Source of the DNA: Candidatus Woesearchaeota archaeon
GTDB lineage: Archaea; Nanobdellota; Nanobdellia; Woesearchaeales; JAGVYU01
Direction of reading: 5' to 3'
Assembly: GCA_018303105.1 (NCBI GenBank)
Contig: JAGVYU010000014.1
Location: forward strand, 1-35,656
Length of the DNA stretch: 35,656 nucleotides
Both the position numbers and the translations under genes were made by a program. The notes under the pieces were generated by a model, which saw only the letters and a list, made by a program, of their open reading frames with translations, did not search any database and was not told where the DNA came from. Positions 20,779 through 34,509 of the stretch are shown piece by piece; within the stretch, counting starts at the first letter, position 1; each line of letters begins with the position of its first letter.

Positions 20779-21042
20779 TTACATGAGCCCCATGGATGTT
20801 GCTACGTCAATAGCGGGCGTGTCTGGCGAAAACCGGACATACGCGCGCTTTCTCCCTTTCATATCAATCTGGGTTGTGACTCGAGTTACTTTTGCTTTGA
20901 AGAGTTCTTCGATCGCTTGTTTAATCGTCTGCTTCGTAGCTTTGTTGTCCACTACAAAGATTAATTTGTTTTCCGCTTCCATGAGCCGCAGCGACTTTTC
21001 TGTGGATAGGGGATACTTGATGATTGTAGTGTGCTCTTTCAT
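20779..21042 (-). CDS. rpl23: Ribosomal protein L23
   Basis: [65 protein letters not shown]. Confidence 0.97.
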
Positions 21043-21857
21043 GCGCTCGCCTCACTGAAGAGCTTGTCTTTCCTGATTTTTTCAAGAGAGCCTTTCGTGA
21101 AGAGCGTGAGTCTTCCCGGATGTCCTCCTGGAGCGAGCAGTTCAATATTAATATGGTGAACGAGGGCAACATCAATCCCGGGGATATTGCGCGCGGATTT
21201 GAGGAGTGCGCAGGGTTGGGAGACGACGACTAAAGGCCCGGTTCGTTTCTTGTATCTTCTGCCTCGCATCTTTCCTTTTCCCGCGCGGATTGTTTTGAGT
21301 CCTGAGCGCGCAAGTTCCTCTCCCAGTCCCATGCTCCCAAGCAATGTGTAAAACTCCTTTGTCTTTGACACGCTTTCAAATTCATCATCGAGTGCGACCG
21401 GGTATGCCTCTGGCACTTTGTGTCCGCGTCCCCCAACAAGAGTCTTCTGGACTGTCGCGCTCAGTGCTGAGCGCAATGCCTTGAGCCGTTCTTTATCATT
21501 GATTTTAAGATCCCAGATCTTTGAGGATTTGGGCGGATGCGCTCTCCTTCCTCCGACAGTTCCGGGTGCGAATGCGCCAACCCAGTTGAATCGGGTTCCG
21601 CTACGCGATAGTATTTTTCTCGGGACTCTGGAAATGCCAATGCCATAGGAGGTTTTATAGTCACGTCTCCTTCTGGAAAGCTTTGCGCTCTGGCGTTTTC
21701 CAGCCGTGGGCAACGCACCGTAGGGTTGGCGTTTGTGGCTCCGCAGAGACGTAAATGCACGGCGTATGAGGTCCTCACGTAAACTTTCCTTAAACTGTGC
21801 AGGCAACTCTATCTGCCCCGGGCTGCTCATGTCCTTTTTGATAATCTTGATTTTCAT
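21039..21857 (-). CDS. rpl4: Ribosomal protein L4 (L4e/L1e type)
   Basis: [64 protein letters not shown]. Confidence 0.97.
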
Positions 21858-21860
21858 TGT

Positions 21861-22847
21861 TTATTTTCCCTGTTTTGACGCGATGCTGATATATTGAAGT
21901 GCTGGAGCCTCTGAAGGTATTCCTTTATCAGCCCTCCACGGCACCGTGAGCTTGATGAGCCTTTTTGAAGGGCCGGGAATGCTTCCCTTGACGAGAATAT
22001 AGGGATTCTTCACTACCCCATAGCGTAAGAATCCGCCCTTCACATTGATCTCTTCTGGTTTCTCGCCAATTTTCAGAATCCATTTGTTGTATTCCGTCCG
22101 AGTGTGATATCCCATCTGGCCTGCGTGCGCGACTCTGTACATCATGTGCCCTTGGGCGTTCCATGCGCCAAGCGATCCAGGCCCTCGCTTTGTCTTTTCT
22201 GACTTGTGACTGCGAATCGAGACCCCAAAACGCTTTACAGGGCCTTGAAATCCCTTTCCCTTAGTGACCGCATGGATGTCGCTTTGCTGCCCTTCCTTGA
22301 ATACGTCGCTGATTTTGATTTCCTTGCTGAGCAGTTGCTGTCCAAGGGCGAGTTTTTGCTCTTTCGATCCTGATAGACCAAGCTCAAAGATTTCCGGTTT
22401 CTTTTTTCCGATGCCTGTAAGTTTGGGCTGCGTGTAAACAACGAGTCTGACGTCATCGAACTCTTTGAAATCGTCAATTTTTTTTGAATGTTTCTTGATA
22501 TGAGGCAAAGCGCGTTCCAGCTCCTTGTCAATGTGCTCAGAAAGCACTTCACCAATGACATTGAAACCGTTGTGGCGTTTGCGGAAAAAGCGGAGAGAAA
22601 GAGGTTTTATGGGCGGGCATTCAATGACCGTCACGGGACAAAAAATGTCTTCGTTTTTGGTCGTTGACTGCTTCCGGTTATCCGTCATGATCACGTGGGT
22701 CATGCCAACTTTATATCCGGCAAAACCGAGCAGTTGAGCGTCCTTGAGGGCGCGCTGCCAAGACCTTATTCTAGTATGTTGACGCCTGGCGCGCTTTCGC
22801 GGCCAATACTGCATACTTCCATGTCTTGGTCCGAATACCTGTCCCAT
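21861..22847 (-). CDS. rpl3: Ribosomal protein L3
   Basis: HGSMQYWPRKRARRQHTRIRSW...GPVKRFGVSIRSHKSEKTKRGPGSLGAW. Confidence 0.97.
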   Translation of the reverse strand: MGQVFGPRHGSMQYWPRKRARRQHTRIRSWQRALKDAQLLGFAGYKVGMTHVIMTDNRKQSTTKNEDIFCPVTVIECPPIKPLSLRFFRKRHNGFNVIGEVLSEHIDKELERALPHIKKHSKKIDDFKEFDDVRLVVYTQPKLTGIGKKKPEIFELGLSGSKEQKLALGQQLLSKEIKISDVFKEGQQSDIHAVTKGKGFQGPVKRFGVSIRSHKSEKTKRGPGSLGAWNAQGHMMYRVAHAGQMGYHTRTEYNKWILKIGEKPEEINVKGGFLRYGVVKNPYILVKGSIPGPSKRLIKLTVPWRADKGIPSEAPALQYISIASKQGK

Positions 22848-23040
22848 TGTTCAATATCCACTGATTTCAAAGTTGCTTGAAATCTTTTGTGTGTTACGGT
22901 TGTAACCACCCCACAAACCAGAAAACAGTGCGTTTCTGCCAAAACTGTACTGAAAACCTTGTTTTCAGGCTTGTTTTGACGTTATTCAACTTGAATATCG
23001 TCTTAGGTATCATTTGAAGAATTGATGGTTTATTTATAAA
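22848..23040 (-). promoter_or_regulatory. Promoter and structured 5' leader of the ribosomal-protein block
   Basis: Minus-strand TATA element tttataaata (23031-23040); leader contains inverted repeats at 22983-22997, 22950-22968 and 22863-22884, read directly. Confidence 0.6.
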
Positions 23041-23083: not shown

Positions 23084-24457
23084 TCATTTTGTGTCTTGAT
23101 GAGGGGCTTTTTTCTTCCTTGGCTCTTCCTGCTTCAACAGCCGAGTCTTTCGAATGGCATAGCTCACGGGATTTTTGATTTTGGCACATAAGCTGTCCGG
23201 CTGGCACACTCCAAGATCATTATAATACATCATGTTCTGGCAGTTTGGGGGGAGCACTTTCTTCTGTTGGGCCTTGTGATACTTAATATGCCCTAAAAGA
23301 ATCGTGTCGCGGAGATGCTCTTTGTTTTTTGCGTTCCAATCCTGCAATCTTGCCTGGATCATGTCATAGCTCCACCCGCAGCTCACAAGGAAATTCACGA
23401 GAATGAATAATGCCCGTTTCTTGCCGTCGTCCATTCCCCCAAAGATAAGCTTGATGCATGGTGGGAAAAATGGTTCAGGGATTGCTTGGTCCAATGCAGC
23501 AAATTCCTTGAGCTCATCCTCTCGCGGTTTTTCTCCCACAGGTTTATAGTCATACGCTTGCACTAAGAGTTGCCGCGCCTCTCCCGCAACACAGGTTGCA
23601 TCATCGAGAAAACGGATAAACGTGACATTGACATTGCTAGGAAGCGCGTCCTCATGCGAGAAACTCCGAATGGACGTTGGCTCAAGTGGGATGCTAATGA
23701 GCCCTGATTTCTCATTAAAGCTATAGACGCTTCTGTAGAGATGCCGTGACGCAAGGAGTACCGTGTCGATTGTAAGAACCTGATACGGATTAAACGTATT
23801 GTTTTGAACAAGGGCGTCATACGCGAGGCCCGTTCGCTTCATAATAGCATTAATGTCCTCGAATCGGAGAAGCTCAACGGCTAATGCTTCTTGAATAAAA
23901 CATTTAAGGTACACCGCGATCCTTCGTGGAGCTTCTGGAAAGAGATCTTTTGTGTACTTGTTTCCAAGTTGTGGCGGGAAAGCCTTAAACGGCACTCCAA
24001 TGTGGAATCCATGGTTTCCTGAAAATTTCACGCTGATTCCCTGTGCTCCATGATGAAGCAGGGCTTTGCACAGCAGATCTGCAGCGATTTGTGAGTATGC
24101 AAAGTGATCGCAGTCAATATCGAGGACGAGATCCCAGCCGGTTCGGAGTGCGTCAAGCTCCCGCCGCGAGAGGTTCGTTCCCAGCTGCCCGAGGGTTCCC
24201 CAATATTCTTCAGAGATGTGGAATGATGTTGCTCCTTCTTGCACGGCGCTGAGGATATCATTGGGGTAGCGCAGCGTATCAGGCCGTTTTCCGAAGCCTT
24301 TGTCTCCGTACTTAATCGCAACCTCCTTGCCTTGCGCGTTGTCCAGAATCGCCTGCTGAATCTCAATCCGTTTATAGTGGTTCAACAGCTTGGATATTGG
24401 TATCTCCCCCATCCTCTCAATGAAGGGAATCCCGTTTAAAATACTTTTGATCCACAA
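23084..24457 (-). CDS. DNA primase, PriS catalytic domain fused to PriL Fe-S C-terminal domain
   Basis: PriS motif LVLDIDCDHF and VKFSGNHGFHIGVPF; C-terminus FPPCIKLIFGG...LPPNCQNMMYYNDLGVCQPDSLCAKIKNPVSYA matches the PriL 4-Cys region. Confidence 0.9.
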   Translation of the reverse strand: MWIKSILNGIPFIERMGEIPISKLLNHYKRIEIQQAILDNAQGKEVAIKYGDKGFGKRPDTLRYPNDILSAVQEGATSFHISEEYWGTLGQLGTNLSRRELDALRTGWDLVLDIDCDHFAYSQIAADLLCKALLHHGAQGISVKFSGNHGFHIGVPFKAFPPQLGNKYTKDLFPEAPRRIAVYLKCFIQEALAVELLRFEDINAIMKRTGLAYDALVQNNTFNPYQVLTIDTVLLASRHLYRSVYSFNEKSGLISIPLEPTSIRSFSHEDALPSNVNVTFIRFLDDATCVAGEARQLLVQAYDYKPVGEKPREDELKEFAALDQAIPEPFFPPCIKLIFGGMDDGKKRALFILVNFLVSCGWSYDMIQARLQDWNAKNKEHLRDTILLGHIKYHKAQQKKVLPPNCQNMMYYNDLGVCQPDSLCAKIKNPVSYAIRKTRLLKQEEPRKKKAPHQDTK

Positions 24458-31166: not shown

Positions 31167-31167
31167 T

Positions 31168-31258
31168 ACGGCTGTGGTGCAGTGGTTAACATTCGAGCTT
31201 CCCAGGTCCTAAGGACTGGAAACAGCTTGTGACCCGGGTTCGAATCCCGGCAGCCGTA
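31168..31258 (+). tRNA. tRNA-Gly (anticodon CCC) with 19-nt intron (31205-31223)
   Basis: Acceptor ACGGCTG/CAGCCGT, anticodon stem CGAGC/GCTTG, T arm CCGGG-TTCGAAT-CCCGG; anticodon loop TTCCCA^...^A interrupted at 37/38; no encoded CCA. Confidence 0.92.
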
Positions 31259-31261
31259 TTA

Positions 31262-33665: not shown

Positions 33666-34484
33666 ATGACACCAACAAAAACATTCCAAAAACGCGTCAG
33701 CGGTAAAAAGATTAAGGAAGGAATCAATTCCGTTATCGATATTGTCAGATTAATTACTAAAGATTATCTTTGCTCTTATGATTTTGATAGCAGATCCGAT
33801 GTCCGATTCAAAAAGAAAGATGACCCTGTCACAGCCATGGACACGATGTTAGAGGGCATGATACGCGAACAACTGAAGAAAATCGACGGAATCACTCTTG
33901 TTGGCGAAGAAGAAGGCGGTTCTTCTGAAGGAGCAGATCTCGTTGCGTATATTGACCCTATTGATGGAACAAAATCCTTCTTGCGTGAAGATTTTCGTTC
34001 AGCAACAAGTGTAGGTATAGAGTTTCAAGGAAATCTCATCGCAGGACTTGTCTTCGACTTTATGAAAGATATTGCATATAGTGCGATTGATGGAAAATGC
34101 GTTCGAAGAAGGGGGGTTCGTGAAACCCCTCGATTTGCAGCACGGTACCGTTTCGGAAGACCAAGGATATCAGTAGACATGGAAGGAATTCGAACAATCA
34201 TTGACAAGAATCTTCCATTCTCTCCTGTAAAGGCAGAAGGTTCAATAGCCCTGGGAATGGCAGAGTGCGCGATAGGCGCATATGACGCGATGATAGACTA
34301 TCCAAGCCCAAAAACACATACTTGGGATATTGCGGGCGGAGCAGCACTGATCCAAGCGCAAGGCTTTTACTTTACGGACATCTACGGAAATCCATTCAAC
34401 CATAGAAAGCCGGAAAACGGCTTCATTGCCTGTAAACCAGAATTTGCAGAGCAAGTTCCTAAACATTTCCTCCTGAAAAAATAG
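33666..34484 (+). CDS. Inositol monophosphatase family protein
   Basis: LVGEEEG, AYIDPIDGTKSFLR, HTWDIAGGAALIQAQG motifs; ATG at 33666 preferred over 33642. Confidence 0.9.
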   Translation: MTPTKTFQKRVSGKKIKEGINSVIDIVRLITKDYLCSYDFDSRSDVRFKKKDDPVTAMDTMLEGMIREQLKKIDGITLVGEEEGGSSEGADLVAYIDPIDGTKSFLREDFRSATSVGIEFQGNLIAGLVFDFMKDIAYSAIDGKCVRRRGVRETPRFAARYRFGRPRISVDMEGIRTIIDKNLPFSPVKAEGSIALGMAECAIGAYDAMIDYPSPKTHTWDIAGGAALIQAQGFYFTDIYGNPFNHRKPENGFIACKPEFAEQVPKHFLLKK

Positions 34485-34509
34485 GTTTTTAAAGCGGGAA
34501 GCACTTGCA

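Follow-up and report, generated by a model that had tools for sequence, protein, structure and literature searches.

Autogenous control of ribosomal-protein (r-protein) genes through mRNA leaders is an established mechanism of archaeal uL1 and of E. coli uL4, which acts on the S10-operon leader to control both transcription and translation (PMC10931766). The L4-Archaeoglobi r-leader is a predicted RNA upstream of rplC-rplD-rplW-rplB, to which L4 was assigned by precedent (Eckert and Weinberg 2020, PMC7247131). It exists in Archaeoglobi only and was rated borderline by its authors (PMC7247131). The archaeal S15 and eL15 r-leaders likewise show covariation, in other operons and other lineages (Halobacteria, Methanomicrobia, Euryarchaeota) (PMC7247131).

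The leader studied here precedes the genes of L3, L4, L23, L2 and S19, in this order, in the window, which is the whole 35,656-nt stretch of Woesearchaeales DNA that was analysed. Like the L4-Archaeoglobi r-leader, it is a predicted archaeal leader RNA in front of an rpl3-rpl4-rpl23-rpl2 type cluster, and it shares with the E. coli S10-operon leader a long structured leader and a homologous gene cluster. The latter is bacterial, however, and no Rfam family of such kind matched. The E. coli S10 operon also starts with rpsJ, unlike the rpl3-first archaeal block. No meaningful match to the window leader was found in Rfam 15 up to E 5, and a search of nine rpl3 loci, related or outgroup, gave no match up to E 1. 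The r-leaders of PMC7247131 were in Rfam by release 14.3, from which we infer that L4-Archaeoglobi was among them; the Woesearchaeales element is thus set apart from it through Rfam, not through a consensus structure. The archaeal uL1 control belongs to a different operon and involves close mimicry of a 23S site, which was not found in the Woesearchaeales leader.

Table 1. Positions in the window of the repeats, the putative RNA elements and the first two genes of the block
Feature	Position	Strand	Remark
Repeat 1, TATTCAA-C-TTGAATA	22983-22997		
Repeat 2, CTGAAAAC-AAG-GTTTTCAG	22950-22968		
Repeat 3, GATTTCAA-6 nt-TTGAAATC	22863-22884		
TATA box TTTATAAA	23033-23040	-	sequence; good TATA box
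P0 hairpin GACG-A-TATTCAA-G-TTGAATA-A-CGTC	22978-23002	-	extended first palindrome; window z -3.8 (simple shuffles)
Conserved leader element, divergent copy	22904-22974	-	R2 27.1 bits, E 1.4e-4 (window)
P1 5' strand ACAAGCC	22968-22974	-	pairs with 22913-22919; homologous to conserved xxGCC
Internal-loop strand UGAAAA(C)	22961-22967	-	near-invariant in relatives
CAGUAC box	22947-22952	-	alignment A2
UUCU box	22920-22923	-	kept 3' of P3 in relatives
P1 3' strand GGUUUGU	22913-22919	-	directly after UUCU
Window-specific pairing GAAAACA (22960-22966) / UGUUUUC (22921-22927)	22921-22966	-	minimum-energy fold
Alternative local hairpin CUGAAAAC-AAG-GUUUUCAG	22950-22968	-	second palindrome; weak covariation support in relatives
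Start-proximal hairpin GATTTCAA/TTGAAATC	22863-22884	-	ends 15 nt before ATG
GUUAC-AACC-GUAAC hairpin	22893-22906	-	fold of predicted transcript; conserved counterpart not established
rpl3 (uL3)	21861-22847	-	first gene of the block; PF00297, E 1.6e-68
rpl4 (uL4)	21039-21857	-	second gene, candidate ligand; PF00573

The original prediction described three perfect inverted repeats within 22848-23040, and all of them are present exactly where they were placed (Table 1). Their number is beyond chance. Among 2,000 dinucleotide shuffles of this region, 1,608 contained no repeat, 359 contained one, 33 contained two and none contained three, and three repeats occurred in only one of 710 segments of 193 nt taken every 50 nt over the whole window. 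A smaller inverted repeat that had also been noted, GTTAC-GGTT-GTAAC, was found as well (Table 1). Transcription would be expected to start about 25 nt downstream of the TATA box, near 23008. The predicted 161-nt transcript folds with -45.2 kcal/mol (z -3.55), more stable than all of 200 dinucleotide shuffles. The distance from the TATA box to GCCTG is 63 nt in the window and 53-98 nt (5th-95th percentile) in relatives, and a TATA-like box lies 5' of the element in the 117 leaders examined. Elsewhere in the window, just upstream of the leader, the minus strand encodes a 457-aa protein (23084-24457), which may be a fused primase, judging from a weak match of its C-terminal part to the DNA primase large subunit (PF04104). 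On the plus strand, a tRNA-Gly(CCC) gene (31167-31259) is 93 nt long, longer than usual, and possibly contains an intron.

When the window leader was compared with 60 Woesearchaeales genomes by blastn, a short segment (CCTGAAAACAAGGTTTTCAGTACAG...) matched shortly before rpl3 in several places. Further matches, to query positions 244-284, reflected nothing more than TATA boxes in common. These loci were pooled with 33 further loci, whose contig titles were mostly Candidatus Woesearchaeota, and with 100 loci at chosen coordinates, giving 168 distinct rpl3 upstream sequences, a few of them from other archaea. The shared element reads, from 5' to 3', P1 (xxGCC), UGAAAAG, a variable P2, CUUUUCAGUAC, P3, GUUCU, P2', NNNAAWA and P1' (GGCxx). 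P1 is thus formed by xxGCC and GGCxx, the internal loop by UGAAAAG and NNNAAWA, and the tip by CUUUUCAGUAC, P3 and GUUCU. A separate 5' hairpin, P0, usually precedes the element, and the median distance from P1' to the start codon is 58 nt in strict matches. The UGAAAA(C) strand is nearly invariant both in alignment A2 and in the members without AGUAC, and UUCU is kept 3' of P3. CAGUAC is invariant in the 37 leaders aligned in A2, which is biased upwards because this set was picked for AGTAC. A helix of AGUAC with GUUCU is possible if a U-U mismatch is allowed; it is conserved but not covarying. Some other families, notably f66, lack the CAGUAC box, yet UGAAAAG, UUCU and AAWAGG are kept.

Several upstream regions showed other conserved segments. 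In f66-type leaders (for example L046, L057 and L098), a conserved YACACTG-stem-TTAAATG hairpin lies at the P0 position and replaces GTGTTTAAA/TTTAAACAC. Two leaders of family f18 (L040 and L054) are without the element and have a common conserved segment instead, CACCTATAGAGGGAA ... CTCTATGGGAATTAA. The Thermoplasmata and DHVE2 rpl3 upstream regions L079, L089 and L080 contain another candidate leader, AGCC-A-GACGCC ... AAAAGGCGUC-AC-GGCU, which encloses two hairpins with apparent covariation between L079 and L089 and lies near an SD-like GAGGTG.

Conservation and compensatory change upstream of rpl3 in relatives had been named as the check on the original prediction, and the comparison revealed a conserved covarying RNA element. 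In the 37 aligned leaders, a set picked for AGTAC and for at least four of the five P2 pairs, each of the four P2 pairs that were counted has changes on both strands. Doubly changed cells numbered 55 in this set versus 16.4 ± 3.4 after shuffling, and 195 versus 60.9 ± 10.7 in 99 model-aligned matches; these covariation figures are not probabilities, because related sequences are not independent. Paired cells of P2 amounted to 92.9% versus 33-60% after sliding by 1-3 columns, the former being biased upwards because of the selection for P2 pairs. A strand-swap test had no selection on P2 pairing; its only anchors were the first pair of P1 and the conserved boxes. The two strands of P2 formed 3.94 of five pairs within a genome versus 2.76 when strands were swapped between genomes, and with the best of three registers taken on both sides, P2 was complete in 53% versus 8%. 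Among the members without AGUAC, the same test gave 4.5 versus 3.4. The core fold had a mean z of -3.3.

A covariance model of the element, R2, matched 215 of 353 Woesearchaeales genomes at E<=0.1 and 180 of them at E<=1e-3, the latter count being obtained by subtracting the 35 genomes with listed values above 1e-3. All of the 78 matches that could be cross-checked, namely those with rpl3 coordinates also listed, share the strand of rpl3 and precede it by 6-181 nt. R2 was also found at E<0.001 in 82 of 100 sampled rpl3 upstream regions. Outside Woesearchaeales, a draw from the whole class gave only six matches (E 1e-3 to 6e-3), which were taken as chance level because about 300 genomes would give about as many. 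Covarying structure in the 5' leader and a consistent position upstream of r-protein genes, both expected of an r-protein leader, were thus observed. Conserved position, compensatory base changes and the exclusive link to rpl3 strongly support, at the level of sequence comparison, that the leader of this r-protein block is an RNA element.

The palindromes themselves are real, while conservation with covariation is seen in the helices P1 and P2, which had not been recognised as such. The GGTTTGT strand had been noted as part of an imperfect stem; it takes part in a longer, previously undescribed pairing with ACAAGCC, which is P1. The middle palindrome, CTGAAAAC/GTTTTCAG, holds only in part: its strands are conserved, but their mutual pairing is barely backed by covariation. 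As a conserved fold the local hairpin was rejected: doubly changed cells numbered only two and fell at a single pair, without a gain in pair types. Model R1, an RNAalifold structure that covered this hairpin alone, was dropped. The hairpin is possibly an alternative state rather than a supported fold. The start-proximal hairpin, proposed as leader structure, has no clear conserved counterpart in relatives, where the region shows a weak general tendency to fold (mean z -1.2, versus -2.7 in the window).

The copy in the window retains P0, P1, UGAAAAC, CAGUAC and UUCU. Because P1' directly follows UUCU, it is without the standard P2' and the NNNAAWA segment, and it could be partly degenerate. Two other leaders (L067 and L064/L144) seem irregular in a similar way. 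In the minimum-energy fold of the window copy, GAAAACA pairs with UGUUUUC instead, and the local hairpin CUGAAAAC/GUUUUCAG cannot form at the same time. In the whole-genome search, this copy was found at E 0.005 as the only match of its genome at E<=0.1. A second, weak R2 match in the window (34424-34490, plus strand) scored 14.9 bits with an E of 0.12; it falls where a reading frame of 280 aa has its 3' end and was taken as chance.

The leader most likely represents a cis-acting structured RNA of the rpl3 operon, belonging to a Woesearchaeales-wide family and serving autogenous control by uL4 or uL3, a reading that we hold with fair but not high confidence. Its position in a single operon class is a hallmark of r-protein leaders. 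The region would be the 5' untranslated leader of the rpl3-rpl4-rpl23-rpl2-rps19... transcript. Its RNA would form the P0 hairpin and then a stem-loop, whose conserved purine-rich internal loop lies between P1 and P2 and whose tip helix is CAGUAC/GUUCU. A large-subunit protein encoded in the operon, once in excess over free rRNA, would bind the internal loop or the tip and stabilise the stem-loop, and expression of the operon would fall. The existence of a ligand, its identity and its point of action, either translation or transcript elongation, are what we infer. As ligand, uL4 is the plausible first choice, because of the precedents set by E. coli uL4 and by the leader predicted in Archaeoglobi, and uL3 the second. 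Broken gene order was sought as a guide to the ligand, and rpl4 follows rpl3 in 60 of the 60 loci checked. Since rpl4 always comes after rpl3, gene order cannot decide between them.

Shine-Dalgarno-like sites before the start were found in 21 of 127 leaders versus 14 in the control region. They are hardly enriched, therefore simple Shine-Dalgarno blocking is unlikely. No convincing resemblance to 23S rRNA emerged: R2 searched against four Woesearchaeales 23S loci gave a best E of 0.39, outside the rRNA, and manual comparison with the 23S L4 region of domain I and with domain VI found no structural match. An apparent similarity to 23S domain VI (CCUGAAGG...GAUAGG in E. coli) fails in the archaeal structure, where these strands pair elsewhere. 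The resemblance between CCUGAAAAGG and the hairpin CCUUGGAAAAGG of domain I is short, and the structural context differs. Mimicry of 23S rRNA is not required for autogenous control.

The same RNA might instead work by premature transcription termination, with the P1 hairpin and a following U-run as an attenuator stabilised by the ligand. Of 127 leaders, 46 have a TTTT run no more than 10 nt from P1', versus 2.6% in the local background, which keeps attenuation in play, and uL4 of E. coli works partly by attenuation (PMC10931766). However, a U-run is absent from about two thirds of the leaders, that of the window among them, and the enrichment is partly a consequence of P1' pairing with A-rich 5' flanks; we regard this mode as unlikely. 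Still less likely is a ligand-switched version, in which the UGAAAA strand would alternate between a UUUUCAG hairpin and the open P1/P2 stem, and P1 with the U-run would be the attenuator. The window copy would be its two-state version, since it offers GAAAAC a choice of two GUUUUC strands as partner. If true, this leader would be the first r-protein attenuator in DPANN archaea. A conserved structure without an r-protein ligand, serving mRNA stability, ribosome loading or the sensing of an ion, a metabolite or a growth-rate nucleotide, is about as doubtful as simple attenuation. The lack of rRNA likeness favours it, and the strongly conserved unpaired boxes would also suit a small-molecule or ion sensor, but the exclusive link to an r-protein operon is the usual setting of r-protein leaders.

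Two further readings do without a regulatory RNA. The TATA-proximal palindrome had been offered as a protein operator, and it is a near-perfect dyad around a single central nucleotide, spanning about +6 to +30 of the expected transcript and longer than first noted (Table 1, P0). The sequence of such an operator should be conserved. In the P0-equivalent hairpins of relatives (n=108; mean z -2.5 versus dinucleotide shuffles), only the position is kept, while the sequence differs and the loops are long (TGTTTAAAT.., CGTTAAAAC.., GTGTTCAG..), as an RNA stem predicts. Recurrence in position but not in sequence argues for RNA and against a fixed protein operator, which we consider improbable, although it leaves room for an operator specific to the window. 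That the repeats are chance palindromes of AT-rich intergenic DNA is most improbable of all. The start-proximal hairpin and GTTAC/GTAAC, which have no clear conserved counterparts, would fit it, but no shuffle produced three such repeats, and the covariation across the order refutes it for the core element.

A literature search over freely readable main texts found no r-protein leader of Woesearchaeales or DPANN. With no match in Rfam 15 and no description in the literature searched, the best reading of the sequences is that the element is a predicted new RNA family of the known r-protein leader kind. Because this folded RNA is conserved before the same gene across most of Woesearchaeales, it is probably a regulatory switch that matches r-protein output to need. 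Very few cases are known of how archaea balance r-protein synthesis. A leader over most of a large, largely uncultured order would offer a testable cis-regulatory RNA and a new family for genome annotation, and it opens the question of whether uL4 (or uL3) came to control this operon independently in bacteria and archaea.
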